A stretch of DNA of 64,000 nt from Peredibacter starrii (GCF_034259205.1 NZ_CP139487.1:310001-374000), one strand, 5' to 3'. Numbered from the stretch's first letter, positions 3,447 to 45,309 are shown. Notes: generated from the letters alone by a model not told the origin. Numbers and translations are program-made.

Positions 3447-4836
3447 GGTTCATCTCTTTTAATTTGCGATAAAGAGTTTTACGATCGATGCCAAGATCTT
3501 TGGCCGTTTGCTCTTTGGCACCATCATTCTTATCGAAAATATATTGAATGTATTTCTTTGAAAGCTCATCCAGAGTCACTGGCTTTTCATATTCAAAGCT
3601 CACACCAATTTTATTCTCCTGAGGTGTCTCTCCACCCGTTGATGGATAAGCGTCTTCAGTCGGAAGATCTTCCGCTTGAATAAACTCAGATGTCGTAAGC
3701 ACAACCGCTCTTTCAATCGCGTTTTCAAGCTCACGAACGTTACCTTTCCATTCATGGGCCTCAAGTTTTTGAATGGCGTCTTTATTGAAACCCTTCACAT
3801 TCACATTGTTCATGACTGCGAATTTTTTCAGGAAGTACTCACTCAAAGGAAGAATATCATCTCTTCTTTCTCTTAGCGGTGGCATATAAATGGGAATTAC
3901 ATTTAAACGGAAGAATAAGTCTTCTCTGAATCTACCTTCCGCCACTTCTTTACGAAGGTCTTTATGGGTAGCACAGATAATTCTCGCGGTGATATCTCGG
4001 TATTGGTTCTCACCGATACGCTTAACTTTTCGCTCTTGTAGTACACGCAATAATTTTGCCTGCAGTGGAAGAGTCAGGTCACCAATTTCATCTAAGAACA
4101 AGGTACCTTTATTCGCCTCTTCAAAGAGACCAACTTTCTTATCATGAGCACCAGTGAAGGCACCTTTGGCGTGACCGAATAGCTCTGATCCGAGAAGGTT
4201 CTCCGGAATGGCCGAACAGTTAATCGCAATGAAAGGTCCGTCGCGCTTATCTCCTAATTCGTGAACAGCTCGAGCAATAACTTCTTTACCTGAACCAGAT
4301 TCACCTGAGATGAGAACGTTGGCCTGACTACTTGAAACTCTTTTCGCGAGTTCAAGTGCCTTTTTAAATCCTTGCGACTTACCAATGACGCCCTTAAGTC
4401 CAAGAAGGTCTTCCTGGAAAAGACTTTTTAAATTTGTGTTCTCTTGTTGAACCTCATTTAAAAAGAGAGCACGTTGAACAGAAATAAGAAGCTGTGGGAT
4501 ATGAAGAGGTTTTAATACGAAATCGTAAGCACCTGCTTCAATCGCTTCAACTGCGGTTTCAACGCTTCCTTCAGAGGTCATGAGAATAATTGGAAGAGAC
4601 GAGTTTGAACGTCTGATCCTGCGAATAAAATCCATCCCAGACATCACCGGCAGTTTTAAATCCGAGATAACAACATCAGGTTCAACTCGCTTATTTTCAA
4701 TTTCAATGAGGGCCTCTTCAGCATTGCCGAAGGCAAATACCTTATAACCACGTTGTTTAAAGAAACTTGATAGAAGGTCCAATAGGTCCAGATCGTCGTC
4801 GATTAAAGTGATGGTGGCGCTGTTTTTGAGTTTCAC
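3439..4836 (-). CDS. NtrC-family sigma-54 activator (REC-AAA+-Fis)
   Basis: A 465-residue response regulator. The receiver domain spans residues 7-122 with predicted phosphoacceptor Asp59 and Lys109. The AAA+ domain spans ~148-385 with Walker A GESGSGKE (178-185), the sigma-54-contacting GAFTGA loop (225-230) and Walker B LFLDEIGD. A Fis-type helix-turn-helix ends the protein (AKDLGIDRKTLYRKL). The start is taken as GTG at 4836, with AAAGGA upstream. The open frame extends further, to 4932, but without receiver homology. Four sigma-54 promoters lie within 3.4 kb, so it may control them. No cognate kinase is adjacent. Confidence 0.93.
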   Translation of the reverse strand: MKLKNSATITLIDDDLDLLDLLSSFFKQRGYKVFAFGNAEEALIEIENKRVEPDVVISDLKLPVMSGMDFIRRIRRSNSSLPIILMTSEGSVETAVEAIEAGAYDFVLKPLHIPQLLISVQRALFLNEVQQENTNLKSLFQEDLLGLKGVIGKSQGFKKALELAKRVSSSQANVLISGESGSGKEVIARAVHELGDKRDGPFIAINCSAIPENLLGSELFGHAKGAFTGAHDKKVGLFEEANKGTLFLDEIGDLTLPLQAKLLRVLQERKVKRIGENQYRDITARIICATHKDLRKEVAEGRFREDLFFRLNVIPIYMPPLRERRDDILPLSEYFLKKFAVMNNVNVKGFNKDAIQKLEAHEWKGNVRELENAIERAVVLTTSEFIQAEDLPTEDAYPSTGGETPQENKIGVSFEYEKPVTLDELSKKYIQYIFDKNDGAKEQTAKDLGIDRKTLYRKLKEMNLN

Positions 4837-4943
4837 GGGGCTAAAATCCTTTGACGGGAATTTTTGCCTAATATAGTGGCAGAAATACCCAGTGGCAAGA
4901 CCTTGTGAATCTGTAAGTGCTCGATAACACAATAAAAAAAACG

Positions 4944-4959
4944 TGGCATCTTGACTGCA
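4944..4959 (+). promoter_or_regulatory. Sigma-54 promoter for the second DUF1328 operon
   Basis: TGGCAT-CTTGA-CTGCA has GG and GC at -24/-12 with correct spacing. It lies 48 bp before the ATG at 5007 and faces away from the sigma-54 activator gene. Confidence 0.7.
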
Positions 4960-5006
4960 CCTTCCTATCTGGGCCCTTGGGTCTAAGCATTAAGAGGGAA
5001 ATATTT

Positions 5007-5189
5007 ATGTTAAGAGCAGCAATTGCATTCTTCGTGTTAGGACTTTTGGCCTTCATATTTGGGGCCTATAATATAGCAGGGACATCAATCGAAGTCGGAA
5101 AGATCCTGCTGGTGGTTTTTCTGGTCTTTGCATTGATCAGCTTTCTCGGTGGACTTACAACCGGCAGAACGAAGGATAGATTGCCTTGA
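5007..5189 (+). CDS. DUF1328 (YtjA/UPF0391) small membrane protein, copy 2
   Basis: A 60-residue paralogue of the protein at 1588. It has the same N-terminus (MLRAAIAFFVLGL) and two hydrophobic helices, but a longer basic C-terminus (TTGRTKDRLP). The frame continues upstream, but the ATG at 5007 has an AGAGGGA site and lines up with the family and the paralogue, so the upstream part is leader. Its TGA overlaps the TTG start of the next gene, giving translational coupling, and it sits on a sigma-54 promoter. A membrane stress role is inferred from the family. Confidence 0.87.
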   Translation: MLRAAIAFFVLGLLAFIFGAYNIAGTSIEVGKILLVVFLVFALISFLGGLTTGRTKDRLP

Positions 5190-5884
5190 ATTTAGCAGAT
5201 TCAGTCAAATATGTTCTTAAGCGGAAGAAGCACAATATCTTCACAGAGTTTTGGAGAGATGATTTCAAAGGTCTTCTGAAACAATCTCAAGGGGACGTCT
5301 CTCACCTCTTTAAAAGTGGCATTGGCCAATTCAAAAGCGCCAAACAAACAGGATTCAAATTTTCCGTTAAAGACATTTTAGAATCGGGAATGGATGTCCT
5401 CACCATTTTCAAAGTCACTCCACGTCGTGTGAAAGATGGATACTTACAATTTAAAGATGATTTTGTGCATGAGCTTGATAAACAACCTGATCAAAAGCAG
5501 AAAACTATTTTCATCTTAAAAGTTTTGGGCGCACTTACAAGTTTTGCAGTCGGAACTTTCTATAGCATGAAGAAAGGCGGTACGGACTTTAAGATTCCGG
5601 GTCTTAAGGCCAAGAATGCTTTCACTCAATTCCTGCTTACCGAAATTGTTTTCAAATTGTCCCAGGTTTTTATCGTTCGCTTCTTGAACGAAGTTGAACG
5701 TCAGATGACAGACACAGATGAACTTTCCAATATCCGCTATTTTAAAGCATTAATCTCTGATCGAACTCAGATTTTGGCAAAAGAAGGCGAAGTTGAGCAT
5801 CCGCATGAGCCAGATGATCGGGCCATTGAGATTGTGGATGACCTCAAAAATTACATAATGACTGGTAAGCGCCAGTATCACTAA
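5186..5884 (+). CDS. Unknown protein coupled to DUF1328
   Basis: I do not recognise this 232-residue protein. It starts with TTG inside the stop of the DUF1328 gene (TTGA) and depends on that gene for promoter and probably translation. The N-terminal half is basic and polar. Residues ~107-125 are moderately hydrophobic (IFILKVLGALTSFAVGTFY) and ~143-166 form a second hydrophobic or amphipathic stretch, so it may associate with the membrane. The C-terminus is acidic with a His-rich patch (EHPHEPDD). Co-expression with DUF1328 from a sigma-54 promoter suggests a role in the same envelope or stress response. Confidence 0.7.
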   Translation: MNLADSVKYVLKRKKHNIFTEFWRDDFKGLLKQSQGDVSHLFKSGIGQFKSAKQTGFKFSVKDILESGMDVLTIFKVTPRRVKDGYLQFKDDFVHELDKQPDQKQKTIFILKVLGALTSFAVGTFYSMKKGGTDFKIPGLKAKNAFTQFLLTEIVFKLSQVFIVRFLNEVERQMTDTDELSNIRYFKALISDRTQILAKEGEVEHPHEPDDRAIEIVDDLKNYIMTGKRQYH

Positions 5885-5927
5885 CTTACTCATGACAACA
5901 AAGTGTAATTCGAGCTATGGTTTTGCC

Positions 5928-6575
5928 ATGGATATAAATGAAACATTGGAAAATTTAAGAGGCACTTACCTGAATGCAATGCTGGATATCAAGGATTGTA
6001 ATCCTGATCCCGTTTTGCAATTTGATAAATGGCTGGAAGATGCCGTGAATGCAAAGTGCGATGAGCCCAATGCTTTTGTGCTCTCTACGATTAAAGGTGA
6101 TCGTCCTCGTGGTCGAGTTGTTCTCTTAAAAGGCATCCACGAAAACCAATTCATTTTTTACACCAACTACAATAGTGCCAAGGGTGATGAGATTGCTCTT
6201 CACGATAAAGTTTCTCTTACTTTCTTATGGCTTCCCCTGCACCGTCAGGTGCGCATTGAAGGCGTGATCAAAAAAGTAGAACCTAAAATTTCTGATGAGT
6301 ATTTTCATAAGCGTCCACGCGGATCTCAACTTGGTGCCATTGCCTCACCTCAAAGTCATAAGGTTTCTAGTCGCGAGGAACTTGAAAAGTTTTTTGCTGA
6401 TGTTGAAAAGAAGTTCGCCGGAACTGAAGTTCTTCCACGACCTGCTCACTGGGGCGGATATGGAATTGAAGCTGATTACATAGAGTTTTGGCAGGGAAGA
6501 AACAATCGTATGCACGATCGTATCTGCTATGAGCAGAAAAATGGTAAATGGGAACTTTATCGATTAGCACCTTGA
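5928..6575 (+). CDS. pdxH: Pyridoxamine/pyridoxine 5'-phosphate oxidase
   Basis: FMN-dependent oxidase making pyridoxal 5'-phosphate, the last step of vitamin B6 synthesis and salvage. The 215-residue product matches the family along its length: GRVVLLKG and FIFYTNYNSAKGDEI (FMN and dimer contacts), LPLHRQVRIEGV, YFHKRPRGSQLGAIAS, and the C-terminal YIEFWQGRNNRMHDRI with terminal RLAP, a family hallmark. An ATG at 5892 would add 12 residues. 5928 fits the usual length better, and neither start has a good Shine-Dalgarno site. The 3' end overlaps the convergent PAP2 gene by 19 bp. Confidence 0.93.
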   Translation: MDINETLENLRGTYLNAMLDIKDCNPDPVLQFDKWLEDAVNAKCDEPNAFVLSTIKGDRPRGRVVLLKGIHENQFIFYTNYNSAKGDEIALHDKVSLTFLWLPLHRQVRIEGVIKKVEPKISDEYFHKRPRGSQLGAIASPQSHKVSSREELEKFFADVEKKFAGTEVLPRPAHWGGYGIEADYIEFWQGRNNRMHDRICYEQKNGKWELYRLAP

Positions 6576-7123
6576 TGGTTGCGATAGACCCAGGCAAAGA
6601 ACGACGCCCAGATTGTACCGATTACGAATCCACCAATAACATCTCCAGGGTAATGAACACCTAAATAAATGCGACTGTAGCTTACAAGCACAGGGGCGAT
6701 CCAGATGAGATGTTTCCATTTGTGTTTGAAGTTTAAAGTTTTAAAAGAAAACATCACGAGTGCCAAAGAGTTCGCGGCATGTGAAGAAACAAACCCAAAT
6801 TTTCCTCCACACTTTTGTCCGAATGAATAGATGAGTGGTTTTAAATCGATTTCGCGACAAGGGCGCAGACGATTTACGATGTTCTTTAGAACATACGAAG
6901 AAGTCACATCACTTGCAATCAGTGTAAGCACCAGGAAAAGAGCAAAGTAAGCAGTTTCTTTTTTTCCGAAGTGCTTATAGCTATACCAAAAGAAATAACC
7001 CAGAAAAGGCACCCAGATTGATTGTCCGGAAAGGACAGTCATCAATCCATTTAGCCATTCAGCGTGATAGGAATTTAACCACAGAAAAAAAGAGCGATCG
7101 AGAGCTTGAAGGCCTTCAATCAC
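6557..7123 (-). CDS. PAP2-family membrane phosphatase
   Basis: A 188-residue membrane phosphatase with all three acid-phosphatase signatures: K80-x6-RP (KNIVNRLRP), SSH at 113-115 and SRIYLGVHYPGD (150-161, His157). About five hydrophobic helices surround them. PAP2 enzymes in bacteria dephosphorylate undecaprenyl pyrophosphate, phosphatidylglycerol phosphate or lipid A. Its gene overlaps by ATGA with the polyprenyl-phosphate-sugar synthase upstream, so recycling of the polyprenyl carrier is the most likely job, though this is inferred from position. Confidence 0.85.
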   Translation of the reverse strand: MIEGLQALDRSFFLWLNSYHAEWLNGLMTVLSGQSIWVPFLGYFFWYSYKHFGKKETAYFALFLVLTLIASDVTSSYVLKNIVNRLRPCREIDLKPLIYSFGQKCGGKFGFVSSHAANSLALVMFSFKTLNFKHKWKHLIWIAPVLVSYSRIYLGVHYPGDVIGGFVIGTIWASFFAWVYRNHQGANR

Positions 7124-7848
7124 TGAAGAGTACCTAGCATCTTTTTAAAGCGCAGGCGGAACACATTGATCACCGCTTCTACGATAATTTTGCGGCTCAT
7201 TTTAGATTTACCAACTGTGCGCTCATAGAACGTAATTGGTACTTCTAAACATGGAAGGCCTTGTGACCAAACTTTATATTTAAGTTCAATCTGGAAAGCG
7301 TAACCAATTGAGAAAATCTTATCGAGATTAAGTGACTGAAGGGCCTTACGTGAATAACCGTTGAAGCCTCCAGTTGAATCACTGAATGGAATGCCGGTAA
7401 TAACACGAGCATAAATAGAGGCAAAGTATGAAAGAAGAAGTCTCTGCATCGGCCAGTTCATGATACGAATTCCGCCAATATAACGAGAGCCTACTGCCAG
7501 GTCATACTGACCCAGTTTATTTGTAAATTCAGGAATAGCTTCTGGATCGTGAGAGAAGTCACAGTCCATAGTGATGACTGCTTCGAAGTTTTGTTCCAGG
7601 GCCCAACGGAAGCCCCTGATGTAAGCGGTACCTAGACCAAGTTTTCCAGAACGTTCAATTAAATGAAGGTTCGCTTTCTTTTGTTGGAAGTTTTTGATGA
7701 GTTTAGCTGTTCCATCCGGAGATCCGTCATCAATAATGAGAACGTTAAGGCTCGGATGTAGACGATCTAGCGTCTCTAACATTTTTTCGATGTTAGCAAT
7801 TTCATTATAGGTTGGTATGATAACAACTGCTTTATCCAAACTGATCAA
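7120..7848 (-). CDS. Polyprenyl-phosphate sugar synthase (GT2, Dpm1-like)
   Basis: A 242-residue GT2 transferase of the dolichol-phosphate-mannose synthase type, which moves a hexose from a nucleotide sugar to a polyprenyl phosphate on the cytoplasmic face. Visible motifs are VVIIPTYNEIANIEKML, LIIDDGSPDGT, the metal-binding MDCDFSHDPE, and GSRYIGG...GGFNGYSRKAL. It has no C-terminal membrane domain, as in soluble Dpm1-like enzymes. The start is TTG at 7848. It forms an overlapping pair with the PAP2 gene and is divergent from a GT39 transferase that would use its product. The sugar cannot be read from the sequence. Confidence 0.85.
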   Translation of the reverse strand: MISLDKAVVIIPTYNEIANIEKMLETLDRLHPSLNVLIIDDGSPDGTAKLIKNFQQKKANLHLIERSGKLGLGTAYIRGFRWALEQNFEAVITMDCDFSHDPEAIPEFTNKLGQYDLAVGSRYIGGIRIMNWPMQRLLLSYFASIYARVITGIPFSDSTGGFNGYSRKALQSLNLDKIFSIGYAFQIELKYKVWSQGLPCLEVPITFYERTVGKSKMSRKIIVEAVINVFRLRFKKMLGTLQ

Positions 7849-38910: not shown

Positions 38911-38916
38911 AAACGA

Positions 38917-38945
38917 AAGGCCGGGCAACCGGCCTTTTTTTTTGC
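38917..38945 (+). terminator. Terminator after ftsZ
   Basis: AAGGCCGG-GCAA-CCGGCCTT (38917-38936), an 8-bp stem with a GNRA loop, runs into a long T tract. Confidence 0.9.
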
Positions 38946-39042: not shown

Positions 39043-40620
39043 ATGATTACAAAAAATCAGCAAGGAATGGGTCTCATTGAGGCCCTGTTGGCTGTTGGAG
39101 TTCTGGGTGGATTGGCCCTGGTGATCAATCAATTTAGTAGAAATGCCGGCAAGGTTGTGACCAACCTTGAAATGAACGACGACATCAAAGTTACTCTGCA
39201 ACAGATTCAGGCCACACTATCTGACAGTGAAAACTGTACGAATACCTTTATTGGCAAACGTGCCAACAATGCGATCAATGTTGTTCAAGCGCTTAAGAAA
39301 AAAACTGCCATTGGCTTTGCTGACACTTTCAAAACAATGACCGCTAGTCCCACAGTTACCTATGGTCAAAAAACGCTCAAAATTAATTCTTACTCTCTCT
39401 CCGACGCGGGACCAGATGTTGAAGTTGCTACCTCTGGCACGACTCAACTACTAGTTGATTTTAATCGGGGCGGAAGAGGCGTTCAGGCAAACTCCATCAC
39501 CAAGAGAATCAATCTTCGTGTGGTTGTTGATGGCGCCGGTAATATTACAAGTTGTGTTGCCTTTGATTCGGTAACGACTGATATTTGGAAATTAGCGACC
39601 AATAACTTGGATATCTACTACGACACAGGCCATGTTGCGGTTGGTGTGGTTGCGCCTACTGCAAACCTTACCGTCAAGGCCGCGACCTTTCCTCTGCAAC
39701 CCGGTATTGCCATTCTAGGAAATGAATCGGGCGTTGCTGGTTGGAATCGCGCAGGTGTTTCATATAGTGATAGTACCAGTCCTGAGAGCTGGAGAGTTGC
39801 TGTATTCGGAAATTCTTCCCTCGAAGGAGAAGGGAAATTCGGAATAAATCAAAATGGCATTAATCGTTTCATCATTACTAAAAATGGCAACGTAGGTATT
39901 GGGACCACAAGACCCAATTGCGAAGTTACTTCTTGCGAAAACTCGGATAGTGGAAGAGTTCTTCATGTGCATTCTTCTGGCACAGGTTTGGGAGATGGAG
40001 CAACTGTCCTGCTTAGTTCTGATTCAATTGGGACAAATAACATTGTTGGAAGTCTGGCCTTCGGAAGTTCAACTCGTCCTGGATCAGATTCCAGAGTGGC
40101 GGGAATCACTGGGAACACCATCAGTCCCGCAGGATCTCCACTGGAAGGCAGAATGCTCTTCTGGACCAATACCAGCGGAACGCTTGTCTGGAACATGGTT
40201 TTGACTGAAGTAGGGGCCCTTTGGATTAGAGGAACTTTTGCCACCAATAATTTAACTGAACGTTCGGATGTACGTCTTAAGAACAACATTGTCTCGGTTA
40301 CGCATTCACTAGAAAGGCTTAATAAGCTACAGGGTCAGAGTTATGAGTTTAAAAATAGACCAGGAAAACATCTGGGTTTTATCGCACAAGAAGTTGAAAG
40401 AGAATTTCCTGAGATTGTGAAAACCGGTGAGAATGGTTTCAAGAGTCTTGCTTATTCAAGTTTGCTGGCCCCCATTATTAACTCTGTTAAAGAACTCAAT
40501 GCCTTATGGGAGGCCAAAGAAACAAGACTAAAAAATTTAAAAAAACAAAACAAAGAATTAAAAAATTTTTTGTGTGAGAAAGATCCGAGTGCCCCATTTT
40601 GTAAGAGGAACTCAATATGA
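39043..40620 (+). CDS. Pseudopilin-fibre-S74 chimera, copy 1
   Basis: 525 residues in four parts. (1) Type IV prepilin start: leader to Gly8, then MGLIEALLAVGVLGGLALVI with Glu at mature +5. (2) A ~160-residue head shared by all three copies, with NTFIGKRANN and INSYSLSDA. (3) A fibre-like region with GHVAVGVVAPTANLTV and NGNVGIGTTRPN. (4) A C-terminal peptidase S74 chaperone, SDVRLKNNI with catalytic-dyad Ser408 and Lys413 and LGFIAQEVEREFPEIV, then a coiled coil and two Cys. S74 domains trimerise phage tail spikes and cut themselves off. The mature protein is probably an anchored surface fibre or adhesin. It has no clear ribosome site; genes 2 and 3 follow by overlap. Confidence 0.88.
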   Translation: MITKNQQGMGLIEALLAVGVLGGLALVINQFSRNAGKVVTNLEMNDDIKVTLQQIQATLSDSENCTNTFIGKRANNAINVVQALKKKTAIGFADTFKTMTASPTVTYGQKTLKINSYSLSDAGPDVEVATSGTTQLLVDFNRGGRGVQANSITKRINLRVVVDGAGNITSCVAFDSVTTDIWKLATNNLDIYYDTGHVAVGVVAPTANLTVKAATFPLQPGIAILGNESGVAGWNRAGVSYSDSTSPESWRVAVFGNSSLEGEGKFGINQNGINRFIITKNGNVGIGTTRPNCEVTSCENSDSGRVLHVHSSGTGLGDGATVLLSSDSIGTNNIVGSLAFGSSTRPGSDSRVAGITGNTISPAGSPLEGRMLFWTNTSGTLVWNMVLTEVGALWIRGTFATNNLTERSDVRLKNNIVSVTHSLERLNKLQGQSYEFKNRPGKHLGFIAQEVEREFPEIVKTGENGFKSLAYSSLLAPIINSVKELNALWEAKETRLKNLKKQNKELKNFLCEKDPSAPFCKRNSI

Positions 40621-42194
40621 AGTTAAAGAGTTCTGGAATTGGATTGGTGGAAGTTCTATTGGCGGTAGGAATTCTGGGTGGCTTGACCTTGGTTATTGCT
40701 AAATTTAGTAATAATGCGAATAAAGTCACCAACAACGTTGAGACCAATAATGATATTGTTTCTGCTCTTCAACAAATACAGGCAATTCTTACGGATCCTG
40801 AAAGTTGTACAAATACTTTCATTGGTAAAAGAGCAAATAATACTCTGAATGCTGTTCAGGCACTTCGTCTAAAAAATAATTCTAGCTTTGTTGATGTGTT
40901 TCAGACCAAGACAGTTAATCCCAATATGACCTATGGCCAGAAGTTCCTGAAGATTAATTCTTATACGTTATCTGATGCTGCTGAAGATGTAGATGTGGCA
41001 AGTCTCGGAACGACCCATTTGTTGGTTAATTTTGATCGCGGAACAAAAGGTACACAAACCGAAAGTATTTCAAAAAAAATTAATCTTCGGGTGGTGGTGA
41101 ACGCTGCCGGAGATATCGTCAGTTGCGGAGCTTATAACACCGGCAAGAGTGAGCTCTGGAAGTTTGCTACTAATAACACAGATATATTCTTCTCTGGGGG
41201 AAATGTCTCTATAGGAGTACCCACTCCGACTGCAAACCTCACAGTTCGTGCCACCACGATGCCAGTGGCCTCCGGAGTTTCAATCATTGGTAATGAGGCC
41301 AGCAGTGCGGGTTGGAATAGATCAAGTATTAGTTTCATTGATCAGAGCAGCACCCACAATTGGCATATAAATATGTTTGGTTCTGCATCAAGTGAAGGCG
41401 AAGGAAAATTTGGAATAAACGGTGGACCTCGAGGAGCACCAGCAACGAATCGTTTTATTATTACCAAAGATGGGGATGTCGGAATCGGAACTTTGAATCC
41501 TTCTTGCGCATTTGTGGGTTGTCCCAATGGTATTGATTTTCAAGTTCATAATCCATCAACTAATCCCTTAGAGGGCGCCAATCTTATATTGAGTTCAGAA
41601 TCAGTTCTAACAAATAGCCTCGTTGGGGCCCTTGCCATGGGGACTTTAGGTACTACAGGTGCAGATAAAAGGGCCGCAGTAATAACGGGACAACTTTTTT
41701 CTGCCACACCTACCACATCAGGGAGTCTTGTTTTTTGGACCGCTCATAATGGAGTTAATGAGTGGAACATGATTTTGGACCGTGTGGGAAATCTGTGGGT
41801 TCGCGGAGACATTGCGGCCATTAGTCTTATTGCTCCTTCAGATCGACGACTTAAAAAAAATATTCGGCCGCTCAAAAATTCATTGAAACAGATATCGAAG
41901 TTAAGAGGAGTAAAATTTACCTGGAAAGAATCTGGTAAGAAGGATCTGGGGCTCATCGCTCAAGAAGTTGAAAAGGTCTATCCAGAACTAGTTTTTGAAA
42001 ATGAACAAGGTCTTAAGTCTGTTTCTTACTATGGTCTTCTGGCGCCGGTTGTTGATGCCATTCAGGAATTTTATAAAAAAATAATGACTCACGAGGATGA
42101 CTTAACATCTTTAAGGGACGACACCTTGGCGATGAAAACCTATCTGTGTCTTCGGGAATCCCATGCTTCTTTTTGTCAGAAAGGTCATAGATGA
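40617..42194 (+). CDS. Pseudopilin-fibre-S74 chimera, copy 2
   Basis: 525 residues, same architecture as copy 1. Prepilin cleavage after Gly7 (SGIGLVEVLLAVGILGG, Glu at +5), the conserved head (NTFIGKRANNTLN, TYGQKFLKINSYTLSD), fibre region (NVSIGVPTPTANLTV, DGDVGIGTLNPS), and S74 with SDRRLKKNI (Ser408, Lys413) and LGLIAQEVEKVYPELV. The tail coiled coil ends in CLRESHASFC. ATGA overlaps copy 1 and GAGGAAC serves as its ribosome site. Head and S74 parts are most alike among copies, while the middle segment that would form the exposed tip varies, as expected for adhesins of different specificity. Confidence 0.88.
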   Translation: MKLKSSGIGLVEVLLAVGILGGLTLVIAKFSNNANKVTNNVETNNDIVSALQQIQAILTDPESCTNTFIGKRANNTLNAVQALRLKNNSSFVDVFQTKTVNPNMTYGQKFLKINSYTLSDAAEDVDVASLGTTHLLVNFDRGTKGTQTESISKKINLRVVVNAAGDIVSCGAYNTGKSELWKFATNNTDIFFSGGNVSIGVPTPTANLTVRATTMPVASGVSIIGNEASSAGWNRSSISFIDQSSTHNWHINMFGSASSEGEGKFGINGGPRGAPATNRFIITKDGDVGIGTLNPSCAFVGCPNGIDFQVHNPSTNPLEGANLILSSESVLTNSLVGALAMGTLGTTGADKRAAVITGQLFSATPTTSGSLVFWTAHNGVNEWNMILDRVGNLWVRGDIAAISLIAPSDRRLKKNIRPLKNSLKQISKLRGVKFTWKESGKKDLGLIAQEVEKVYPELVFENEQGLKSVSYYGLLAPVVDAIQEFYKKIMTHEDDLTSLRDDTLAMKTYLCLRESHASFCQKGHR

Positions 42195-43768
42195 AAAGAG
42201 ATGAAACCGGTATTGGCCTGGTAGAAGTATTGATTGCTATTGGGATGCTAGGAGGACTGGTTCTCCTTATTAGTGGTATTAATCAGAATGCACATAAAGT
42301 TGCTGCCAACTTAGAGATTAATACGGATGTGATGCAGACTTTGCAGGAAATCCAGCAGATTCTTGTCATTCCCGAAAATTGCGCCATGACTTTTCAGGGT
42401 AAGAATGCGGTTTCCAATCCAAATGTCGTACAAGCAATTAAGCAAAAATTCAAAACGACCTTCGCAGATGTTTACCCAAATAGTGTCTTAAATCCTCAGA
42501 AAGTCTATGGCAGCAAAAGAGTTAAAATTGATTCTTACGCTCTTTCAGATACTGCGCCTGAGGTCAGCGCTCTTACTCATGGGACGACTCATTTAGTGAT
42601 TACTTTCAATCGAGGTAAGACCGGCACTCAAACTGAGACCATCACCAAACGTATTACATTGAATGTGAAGACCGATGGAGCTGGAAACATAACAGGCTGT
42701 ACTTCAACCAGTTCGTCAAAAAATGAGATATGGAAATTTGCGGCCAATAATTCTGATATCTATTTCAACACCGGAGCGGTGGCGATTGGAACCACCACGC
42801 CAACTCATAATTTAACAATCCAAGCTCGAACTCTGCCTGGCACCTCTGGGATTTCTATCATTGGAAACGAAGCCACCACTGCGGGCTGGAATCGAGCGGG
42901 AATCATGTTCAATGATCAAAGTAGTAATTACTTCTGGTCACTGGCAATGTTTGGAGTTGCGGCCCATGAAGGAGAAGGTGGATTTGGTATTGGTGGAGGA
43001 CCCACCACTACGACAGGATTAAATCGCTTTCTCATAACCAAACAAGGGAATGTCGGAATTAATACTAATCTTCAAAAACCTACATGTGGATTGGCGGATT
43101 GTTCGACCACTAGGTTTCTACATATTCACAGTAATGCCGCCGGACCAGTTGATGCTTCTCAGTTAGTATTAACGACGGATTCGGCGGCAGATGGCAGTAT
43201 CGCGGGCGGAGTCGGTTTCTCGGCCGCTAAGAGCGCTGGTCCTGATCGTAGAGTAGGTGTAATCACCGGTCATATCGTTTCTCCGGCGGGTTCAACCCTT
43301 AAAGGTAATCTTCTGTTTTGGACCAATAATAATGGCGCAAATAACTTCAATGGTGTTTTGAATTCCGATGCGGACTTTTGGGTACGGGGTAATACAGACA
43401 CAGTTAAATTCACTGCGACTTCAGATGTAAGATTGAAAAAAAATATCAGACCATTACAAGCTTCGCTGGAAAAGGTCCTTGCCATAAAAGGAGTGAGCTA
43501 TAATTGGAAGGATTCAAATTATCCTGAAAAGAACTTTGGATTTATTGCTCAAGATGTAGAGAAAGTATTTCCTGAGCTGATTGCGACTGAGAAGGACGGA
43601 AAAATGTCCATGTCGTATATTGGTTTAGTGGCACCGGTGGTTGAAGCACTTAAGAGTTTGTTTGCAATAAAAGCTTCTCAAGAAAAACAAATCTCTCAGT
43701 TGGAAGCTGAGAACAAGATGATGTTGGAATTTATCTGCAAAAAAGAAAAAGCATCTTTTTGTTATTGA
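42191..43768 (+). CDS. Pseudopilin-fibre-S74 chimera, copy 3
   Basis: 525 residues. Prepilin cleavage after Gly7 (TGIGLVEVLIAIGMLGG, Glu at +5). The head is the most diverged copy (TFQGKNAVSNPN, YGSKRVKIDSYALSD). The fibre region has AVAIGTTTPTHNLTI and QGNVGINTN. The S74 domain has SDVRLKKNI (Ser411, Lys416) and FGFIAQDVEKVFPELI, then a coiled coil and CKKEKASFCY. ATGA overlap with copy 2 and AAAGG upstream. It converges on the metallopeptidase gene, overlapping by 7 bp. The three genes form one transcript, with no pilus-assembly genes in the window. Confidence 0.87.
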   Translation: MKRDETGIGLVEVLIAIGMLGGLVLLISGINQNAHKVAANLEINTDVMQTLQEIQQILVIPENCAMTFQGKNAVSNPNVVQAIKQKFKTTFADVYPNSVLNPQKVYGSKRVKIDSYALSDTAPEVSALTHGTTHLVITFNRGKTGTQTETITKRITLNVKTDGAGNITGCTSTSSSKNEIWKFAANNSDIYFNTGAVAIGTTTPTHNLTIQARTLPGTSGISIIGNEATTAGWNRAGIMFNDQSSNYFWSLAMFGVAAHEGEGGFGIGGGPTTTTGLNRFLITKQGNVGINTNLQKPTCGLADCSTTRFLHIHSNAAGPVDASQLVLTTDSAADGSIAGGVGFSAAKSAGPDRRVGVITGHIVSPAGSTLKGNLLFWTNNNGANNFNGVLNSDADFWVRGNTDTVKFTATSDVRLKKNIRPLQASLEKVLAIKGVSYNWKDSNYPEKNFGFIAQDVEKVFPELIATEKDGKMSMSYIGLVAPVVEALKSLFAIKASQEKQISQLEAENKMMLEFICKKEKASFCY

Positions 43769-45309
43769 ATGAGTTCCTCGACCACTTTGTTGGCATTTGA
43801 ATTTATTAATTTAGGACAAGCAATCTCAGCAATCTTGGTAAATTCTTTACTCTTGTAATATGGGTTAAAGCCAAGTTCATCTTTCTTGTAGTCCTGGTTT
43901 GCATAAGATTTGAATGAAGGTTTGCAGTGGTATTTTTCTGAGATGGCCCGAGAAACTTGGTTTCGAAGAATATGACGATGATTATCTTTTGTCTTATTTA
44001 AAGTTTTTGCCATAAATTCATTTGATAGACCAGGATCAAGATTTCTAAACATCGGGTCCATGAATTTAAAGTGTGGATCATCTTTTAAGTTGCTTTTGAT
44101 AACATTATTAGCGCTGAGTTTGATTGATTCTTTGTAACAATCTTCCATCGTTGGCGAACCTAGTTTTAGTTCTCCATCATTGGCGAACTGAGTAACGGCC
44201 TCTTCACTGCAGCGGTCGGCAATTTTTTTAATTTCGTCACTTGATGGTGACCAATTCATTAATTGAGCAGCAGCATTATCTTTTGCCATTTGAGACATCC
44301 GATATGGTTCCGCGCAGGCCTTGGTTGAAGTGTACTCCACGCCATCAAAGATGGTGTTTTTAATAAGATAATACTTTTCGGGACTTTTTTCTTTTAGGTG
44401 GGCAGGGCTGTATCTATAAGCAACAACACTTTCCGCGAAATCTTCTCGTTCATTTGTCATCCCGTATTTTGATACCGCGGTTTCGGGTCTTGAAGTTTTG
44501 GCCTTTATCTCAAGTTTTCCATCCTTCATCTTACCTGCGCTTACCCAACCCCCTTGTTCCATCCATTCAGTACTTTGATCAATTTGAGTCACTCCTCCGA
44601 TTGCGTGTGCTAGTTCATGAACAATTGTCGAGCGACCTTGTTCTGGTGATTGAGTGTTCCATAAATCAAAAATCATGATGGTGGCGTTGGCCAGTGTGCG
44701 GTCACTGTTCATGCCGCGTGGTGCATGGACCAAGGTGCGGCTTTTTTCAAAAGGCATGACCCCTTCAGGAAAATCTGAAATTGCCAGGAGGACCGTATCT
44801 AGCTCTTCTTTTTTCCAGGGAGCCGAGTCTTCTCTTACAATATGCGATCCATTCAGACCGAATCTTGCTTGCATAAAGTGAAGTTGAACTCCAATCTCTG
44901 GGCCGAAAATTTCTTTCAGAGCACAGTCCACTTTCTTACAAGTGGAGGTACGCATTTTATTTTTTTTAGGATCGGCATTACCTAGGATATCAACGTAAGT
45001 TGTTAAATGGTAAAATGCCTCAAGATTCTCCGGCGTTTCATTCTCAAAGTTAATGCCATTGATATTCTTATTTAATCTTGCCTTTGTTTCGTGTGACCTC
45101 AACCAATCACTCATTTCACTGACTGAAAAGGGATTTTTTCTTAAACAATTGGCATTTTTGATTTCATTTTGAGTGGCTGATTCCCAGGTGATTTTTCTTT
45201 GAAGATTGATGAGATCACTAAGTTCCGAAAATTCAGGTTCTCCACAACTTTCGTGTGCAAAGGATGACATTGATAGTAGCAAAGTGAGAGTAAGGAACAG
45301 TATTTTCAT
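43762..45309 (-). CDS. Secreted zinc metallopeptidase (HExxH...E)
   Basis: 515 residues with signal peptide (MKILFLTLTLLLSMSSFA). HELAH at 231-235 is a zinc site, and NEREDFAES (286-294) supplies a likely third ligand Glu, a spacing and sequence like the lethal-factor/ATLF-type gluzincins (HExxH then ExxFAE). Several Cys suggest disulfides. The C-terminal 200 residues are of unknown fold. It overlaps the small exported protein's gene by 4 bp and converges with the fibre genes. A role against extracellular or prey substrates is plausible but inferred. Confidence 0.75.
   Translation of the reverse strand: MKILFLTLTLLLSMSSFAHESCGEPEFSELSDLINLQRKITWESATQNEIKNANCLRKNPFSVSEMSDWLRSHETKARLNKNINGINFENETPENLEAFYHLTTYVDILGNADPKKNKMRTSTCKKVDCALKEIFGPEIGVQLHFMQARFGLNGSHIVREDSAPWKKEELDTVLLAISDFPEGVMPFEKSRTLVHAPRGMNSDRTLANATIMIFDLWNTQSPEQGRSTIVHELAHAIGGVTQIDQSTEWMEQGGWVSAGKMKDGKLEIKAKTSRPETAVSKYGMTNEREDFAESVVAYRYSPAHLKEKSPEKYYLIKNTIFDGVEYTSTKACAEPYRMSQMAKDNAAAQLMNWSPSSDEIKKIADRCSEEAVTQFANDGELKLGSPTMEDCYKESIKLSANNVIKSNLKDDPHFKFMDPMFRNLDPGLSNEFMAKTLNKTKDNHRHILRNQVSRAISEKYHCKPSFKSYANQDYKKDELGFNPYYKSKEFTKIAEIACPKLINSNANKVVEELIQ

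Follow-up and report, generated by a model that had tools for sequence, protein, structure and literature searches.

Tandem genes of Peredibacter starrii predicted to encode modular minor pilins that carry an S74-type fibre

Introduction

Fibres of the MAT type are held on the surface of predatory bacteria, and the authors who described MATs noted a possible interplay with type IV pili (PMC10769870). A stretch of the Peredibacter starrii genome of 64,000 nucleotides (GCF_034259205.1 NZ_CP139487.1:310001-374000), here called the window, contains three consecutive genes in which the same kind of fibre, with its S74 domain, appears to be fused directly to a type IV pilin, as it is repeatedly across the phylum. 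What do such proteins build, and where? A first-pass annotation of this DNA saw in them pilin-anchored, self-cleaving trimeric fibres that might define a distinct surface system. The reading that we prefer, with a probability of roughly 0.6, is that they are modular minor pilins which, from the tip of a type IVa pilus, present a trimeric adhesin matured by S74; processing, trimer, location and ligand are what we infer.

Results

Three coupled genes downstream of ftsZ

The features of the locus, in window coordinates, are these.

38915–38938, + strand: hairpin resembling an intrinsic terminator directly 3' of ftsZ, with a 10-bp stem holding six GC pairs and then a T run (scan)
39043–40620, + strand: copy 1, predicted modular pilin–fibre–S74 protein of 525 aa (open reading frame, S74 E = 5.3e-15, motifs, Cys)
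39067–39576, + strand: pilin head of copy 1, mature residues 9–178, Cys65–Cys171 pair predicted (head alignments)
39922–40101, + strand: most variable segment, as it lies in copy 1, forming the tip before the S74 cleavage Ser (three-way alignment)
40264–40617, + strand: S74 chaperone and coiled-coil tail of copy 1, predicted self-cleavage before Ser408 (Pfam, motif)
40617–42194, + strand: copy 2, architecture as copy 1, 525 aa, ATGA-coupled (open reading frame, S74 E = 4.8e-18, AlphaFold2, head tree)
41838–42191, + strand: S74 chaperone and coiled-coil tail of copy 2, predicted self-cleavage before Ser408 (Pfam, motif, AlphaFold2)
42191–43768, + strand: copy 3, architecture as copy 1, 525 aa, ATGA-coupled (open reading frame, S74 E = 7.6e-19, motifs)
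43421–43765, + strand: S74 chaperone and coiled-coil tail of copy 3, predicted self-cleavage before Ser411 (Pfam, motif)

Reading of the frames confirmed the three overlapping genes of 525 codons each that had been described, neighbours sharing four-base ATGA overlaps. Copy 1 is laid out as a leader (residues 1–8), a pilin head (9–178), a fibre with its tip (about 179–407) and the S74 chaperone with a coiled coil (408–525). In all three copies the head, to about residue 177, the fibre and the S74 domain lie within a single open reading frame, as in a modular pilin. The equal length of the copies is probably coincidental: on alignment, the 525 residues arise through compensating indels in every module, and for that reason we rejected the identity of length as evidence for a heterotrimer.

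The triplet lies 3' of ftsZ, and the strong terminator-like hairpin at 38915–38938 parts it from the dcw cluster; being cut off from ftsZ in this way, it looks like a transcription unit of its own. Shine–Dalgarno-like sequences (AGAGGAA and AAGG) stand before genes 2 and 3, inside the preceding gene. None is present at gene 1, whose ATG directly follows an in-frame TAA, and a sigma-70 scan upstream of that gene gave no promoter-like site. The copies share 46–50% pairwise identity with saturated synonymous sites, from which we take the duplication to be old and the genes to be under constraint; with dS saturated, dN/dS between the copies permits no inference of positive selection. Converging on the triplet, at 43762–45309 on the minus strand, is a gene whose product is probably a secreted, M90-related metallopeptidase (Pfam E = 5.5e-6).

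The amino-terminal head

The prepilin leaders are 8, 7 and 7 residues long in copies 1, 2 and 3, with the cleavage motifs G/MGLIE, G/IGLVE and G/IGLVE. The Pfam N_methyl model is weak on these copies (E = 0.17 in copy 1, no match in copies 2 and 3) and scores above its cut-off in two paralogues of the triplet. In an alignment of 69 heads the Gly at −1 and two Cys are invariant, so that the prepilin N-terminus, claimed previously from the motif and weak in Pfam for the copies alone, is secure through the family. Residue +5 is Glu in all three copies; across the alignment it is Glu in 36 heads, Gln in 25 and another residue in eight. Loss of Glu5 is known in the tip pilins of other systems.

AlphaFold2 gave the head of copy 2 a pilin-like fold (pLDDT 91, pTM 0.80), in which a helix spanning residues 3–53 is followed by β-strands. 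Foldseek alone found no pilin with this model; on a second look with VIA-align, the top structural neighbours were pseudopilins of type II secretion systems (T2SS), at Z scores of 6.0 and 4.7, a Z of 6 being too low to be relied on alone. The nearest folds are XcpI/EpsI-like, chain 9a1f_R being one that we take, from its length, to be XcpI. By leader, motif and modelled fold, the head is a type IV pilin, and presumably it is processed as one. When profiles were compared with GspI, GspJ and PilA of this genome, only the N-terminal region aligned, which does not decide which type IV filament takes the triplet pilins.

The S74 domain

The Peptidase_S74 profile (PF13884) matches copies 1, 2 and 3 at 55.9, 65.6 and 68.2 bits (E = 5e-15, 5e-18 and 8e-19), well over the curated cut-off of 22 bits, and thus bears out the S74 chaperone domain proposed in the first-pass annotation. 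The Ser/Lys dyad and the two tail cysteines named there were likewise found where they had been placed. The SDxRLK motif starts at residue 408 in copy 1 (SDVRLK) and copy 2 (SDRRLK) and at 411 in copy 3 (SDVRLK), giving Ser408/Lys413 twice and Ser411/Lys416 once, and in an alignment of 43 fibre sequences the Ser, the Asp and the Lys in this region are nearly invariant. In the model of copy 2, pLDDT exceeds 90 from about residue 411 to 510. The copies contain exactly six Cys apiece, and all six align: two belong to the head (64/65 and 170/171), two to the second loop of the fibre and two to the tail (511/520 in copies 1 and 2, 516/524 in copy 3), a conservation that suits an exported protein.

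The fibre and its variable tip

Fibre repeats of the form GxVxIGTxxP had been reported. Each copy does contain two motifs that are GxVxIGxxxP-like, of which the second in copy 3 deviates (VGINTNLQKP). In the full-length AlphaFold2 monomer of copy 2, confidence is high for the head and the S74 domain and poor for the intervening fibre, as would be expected of a fibre that folds only as a trimer. Compared with solved structures, a profile of 43 relatives matched a phage long tail fibre (6f45, 1.6e-21), MYRF (7dc3, 1.5e-20), Bd2133 (8ond, 7.6e-17), Bd3182 (8ojn, 8.7e-8) and a pilin (geopilin, 9egp, 9.6e-4); Bd1334 was also matched. Foldseek with the full-length model gave Bd1334, Bd2133 and the endosialidase intramolecular chaperone 3gw6 as its best matches. 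Judged by profile and model, the fibre that adjoins S74 and the fibres of MATs and phages are homologous.

Alignment of the copies, proposed earlier as a means of locating the variable segment, places it just before S74, at columns of about 301–360, where three-way identity falls to 8–16% compared with 24–52% in the head and fibre; the C-terminal tail is a further variable part. The suggestion that the copies offer different specificities stands in so far as they differ at the tip, as do tandem pairs of related genes. In four such pairs (L214, L215, L196 and L232) the start of the head is 85–98% identical and identity at the tip drops to about 25–50%, the L215 pair showing its drop midway along the fibre and in the tail. 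These pairs appear to combine a conserved carrier with a diversified tip.

Genomic setting

The source genome (4.15 Mb, Bacteriovoracaceae) encodes prepilin peptidases and carries complete type IVa pilus, T2SS and Tad loci, whose gene names were assigned partly by reading open reading frames. The family follows from a scan of genome contigs with the shorter pilin–S74 proteins, whose matches were Bacteriovoracaceae MAGs; a like scan for relatives of the triplet proteins themselves had no match. The type IVa locus, at about 394–406 kb, comprises pilB, T, C, A, D, M, N, O, P and Q; the major pilin is there, and no minor pilin gene was seen in that locus. The T2SS locus brings a GHIJK-like set of pilins of its own. 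The head family of the triplet was found in 129 of the 129 Bacteriovoracaceae genomes searched, and in 282 of 291 genomes of the phylum, a count that includes weaker matches and perhaps other pilins. Presence in every genome of the 129 is what one would expect if this family supplied the minor pilins that were not seen in the pilus locus. A search for PilY1 (PF05567) in 125 genomes gave no match, but its control set likewise matched nowhere, so that the result does not speak for absence.

By their N-termini, the 19 S74 genes of this genome divide into five with pilin heads, about six that are lipoprotein-like, seven Sec-exported and MAT-like and one that is unclear. A head-only pilin (L081:14220-15119) neighbours three clustered S74 fibres of the lipoprotein type (L081:1081-13847), which hints that pili and such fibres may be linked in function. 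Another lipoprotein-type fibre gene, at L083:4563-7558, seems to be split into overlapping frames (4563-6578 and 6443-7558) by a frameshift or a sequencing error.

Distribution and descent of the fusion

About 30 further pilin-headed S74 reading frames were read in relatives, beyond the triplet and its two paralogues in the same genome. In the loci fetched, 35 of 62 S74 frames are pilin-headed, the three window copies and two paralogues included; this is not a rate, the loci having been chosen partly for such frames. Among 20 genomes sampled from the phylum's other families, 7 (G206, G254, G204, G298, G203, G250 and G190) likewise carry head and S74 matches in one frame. Most of the pilin–S74 genes read are single and several are paired; three in a row were met only in the window. 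Because the single genes share the architecture of the triplet, self-trimers must be possible. In 19 loci of the genus, the stretches downstream of ftsZ (2.5–9 kb) hold no pilin or S74 gene, and the position of the triplet is therefore specific to this lineage.

On the head tree, where copies 1 and 2 are sisters, the presence of S74 switches at least four times on starred branches, so that fibres must have come or gone more than once. On the S74 tree, domains from pilin-type and MAT-type proteins are interspersed. That of copy 1 groups with one Sec-type S74 domain (86% support, by a quick method), several S74 domains being about equally near by BLAST. The pattern is the mosaic one described for MATs, here on a pilin carrier.

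Also conserved in relatives is an operon of three genes for S74-less pilins from this head family, of about 340, 265 and 345 aa (L222-L230, L097 and L098). Its members form three position-specific clades across genera on the head tree; one such triplet was searched against Pfam and gave no match. This operon probably encodes the family's core set of minor pilins for the tip. The window's genome has its own at L082:5000-7661, with heads that group apart, and the window triplet is placed by the tree as a lineage-specific duplication that is not orthologous to the conserved operon. Directly upstream of this S74-less triplet, at L082:7769-11020, is a gene for a 1083-aa RCC1-repeat protein with a Tat-like N-terminus.

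Discussion

If the proteins are modular minor pilins, as we think probable, motif and fold suggest that the prepilin peptidase would cut the leader after Gly(−1) and that the helix would hold the head in the inner membrane. The C-terminal S74 chaperone would gather three chains in the periplasm, fold the β-helical fibre and then cut itself off before Ser408 or Ser411, to judge from the conservation of the dyad and from what S74 proteins, the MAT Bd3182 among them, are proven to do. Three pilin heads at the tip of a type IVa pilus would push the freed fibre through the secretin, and the variable receptor-binding tip would ride a retractable pilus and grip prey or another surface. One homotrimer per gene is the most likely arrangement, the three genes supplying alternative tips. 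This reading is supported by the domain content, the conserved motifs, the pilin-like model of the head, the kinship of fibre and S74 domain to MAT and phage fibres, the presence of every assembly locus required and the conservation of heads beside divergent tips; the weak N_methyl matches, the low-confidence fibre monomer, Foldseek's lack of a pilin match for the head, a head match of Z 6 and the alignment with GspI, GspJ and PilA over the N-terminal region only count against it.

Several known systems resemble parts of this design. Modular type IV pilins, such as PilB and PilC of Streptococcus sanguinis and the fusions of IPR012902, share the prepilin leader, the pilin module and a grafted C-terminal functional module (PMC8179133). 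The 2021 census in that paper lists the combination of N_methyl with S74 (IPR030392), reading S74 as a peptidase and leaving it unstudied; in the triplet, a MAT- or phage-like fibre lies between the two. The MATs of Bdellovibrio bacteriovorus (Bd3182, Bd2133 and Bd1334) have homologous β-helical fibre repeats, and their S74 group also has an SDxxxK chaperone. They are, however, about 1000 aa long and begin with a signal peptide followed by a β-rich conserved N-terminal domain of ~130 aa (PMC10769870), where the 525-aa triplet proteins have a pilin head. The relation to MATs drawn in the first-pass annotation thus holds for the fibre repeats and tip, which match the three MAT structures by profile or Foldseek, and not for the N-terminus, so that the triplet proteins are not MATs as published, although they probably work like them. 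Phage S74 tailspikes and fibres (the K1F endosialidase 3gw6 and the long tail fibre 6f45) have the C-terminal chaperone, the Ser–Lys dyad and a trimeric fibre, but are attached to virions and have no pilin.

The annotation had also thought a trimeric fibre on a helical pilin structurally odd. That objection is weakened by CofB (ETEC CFA/III) and TcpB (Vibrio cholerae TCP), large minor pilins whose C-terminal β-domains are homotrimeric at the pilus tip (PMC9565799), as proposed here: three pilin heads can top a helical pilus, and the geometry is no paradox. CofB and TcpB differ in belonging to type IVb pili and in that no S74 self-cleavage has been described for them. Their C-terminal domains are H-type-lectin-like; the PDB search with the profile of the relatives matched no CofB or TcpB entry and, weakly, only the major pilin TcpA, the fold comparison not being exhaustive. 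Nor does the triplet define a distinct surface system; it is instead a local expansion of a pilin family present in every Bacteriovoracaceae genome searched. Adaptable tips have a precedent in the Tad pili of another predator, Myxococcus xanthus, whose several minor-pilin tip sets are exchangeable and vary in their distal domains (PMC12075869); its KilLMN tips are Tad pilins, predicted heterotrimers, and have neither S74 nor a phage-like fibre.

Could the three genes instead build one heterotrimer, their heads forming a single pilus tip and their chains winding into one fibre, in the manner predicted for KilLMN or that of GspI-J-K? An S74-chaperoned fibre of three chains would then lock the heads together, cut itself free and prime assembly of the type IVa pilus. 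Exactly three translationally coupled copies of like length, each with S74, invite the idea; the conserved S74-less triplet, with its position-specific clades across genera, makes triplets look like a habit of the family, and Kil tips are predicted heterotrimers (PMC12075869). Yet most pilin–S74 genes elsewhere are single or paired and must self-trimerise, and the window triplet is a lineage-specific duplication rather than an orthologue of the conserved one. We hold the heterotrimer to be possible but doubtful. Were it general, the predators' stock of phage-like fibres would plug interchangeably into lipoprotein, Sec-exported and pilus-tip carriers. That the heads belong to the T2SS or another pseudopilus, the fibre staying in or just outside the periplasm, would agree with the complete T2SS locus and with the XcpI/EpsI-like folds nearest to the head. 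It is nevertheless unlikely, given that the T2SS locus has a full pilin set of its own and that genes of the head family lie outside it, in many copies that vary.

A further reading is a membrane-tethered fibre that is part of no pilus, the prepilin-like N-terminus being only a membrane anchor or signal. That 33 of the 69 heads depart from Glu at +5 (Gln in 25, another residue in eight) and that N_methyl is weak on the window copies can be cited for it, but we judge it improbable because the −1 Gly is invariant in 69 of 69 heads, Glu5 is retained in all three window copies and the pilin-like fold extends across the whole 170-aa head. Finally, the family name and its classification under peptidase activity (PMC8179133) would make S74 a module acting on other substrates, as the census supposed. 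This we think very improbable indeed: the S74 domains that have been studied act on their own chain, Bd3182 behaving in the same manner as other S74 proteins (PMC10769870), and the adjoining fibre is homologous to MAT and phage fibres. In pilin-headed proteins S74 is best read as a fibre chaperone, and its reading in modular pilins would be corrected accordingly from that of a peptidase.

MAT fibres, S74 chaperones, modular pilins, trimeric tip pilins and the combination of N_methyl with S74 are already known. In open-access papers on S74 with pilins, and on pilins or fibres in Bdellovibrio and Bacteriovorax, we found no description of a pilin–S74 fusion in predators. What is new, on the sequence evidence, is the MAT- or phage-like fibre between pilin and S74, the view of S74 there as a chaperone, the recurrence of the fusion in predatory-type bacteria and the keeping of heads while tips change. 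The triplet suggests how predators put variable grippers on retractable pili; if the fibre is indeed carried on such a pilus, this would explain how they join recognition to pulling.

A short pilin with S74 (about 365–430 aa) is found beside radical SAM genes at L080:6576-7706 and in L092-L095; it is related to the triplet but present in single copy, and is conserved throughout the genus and in one other.
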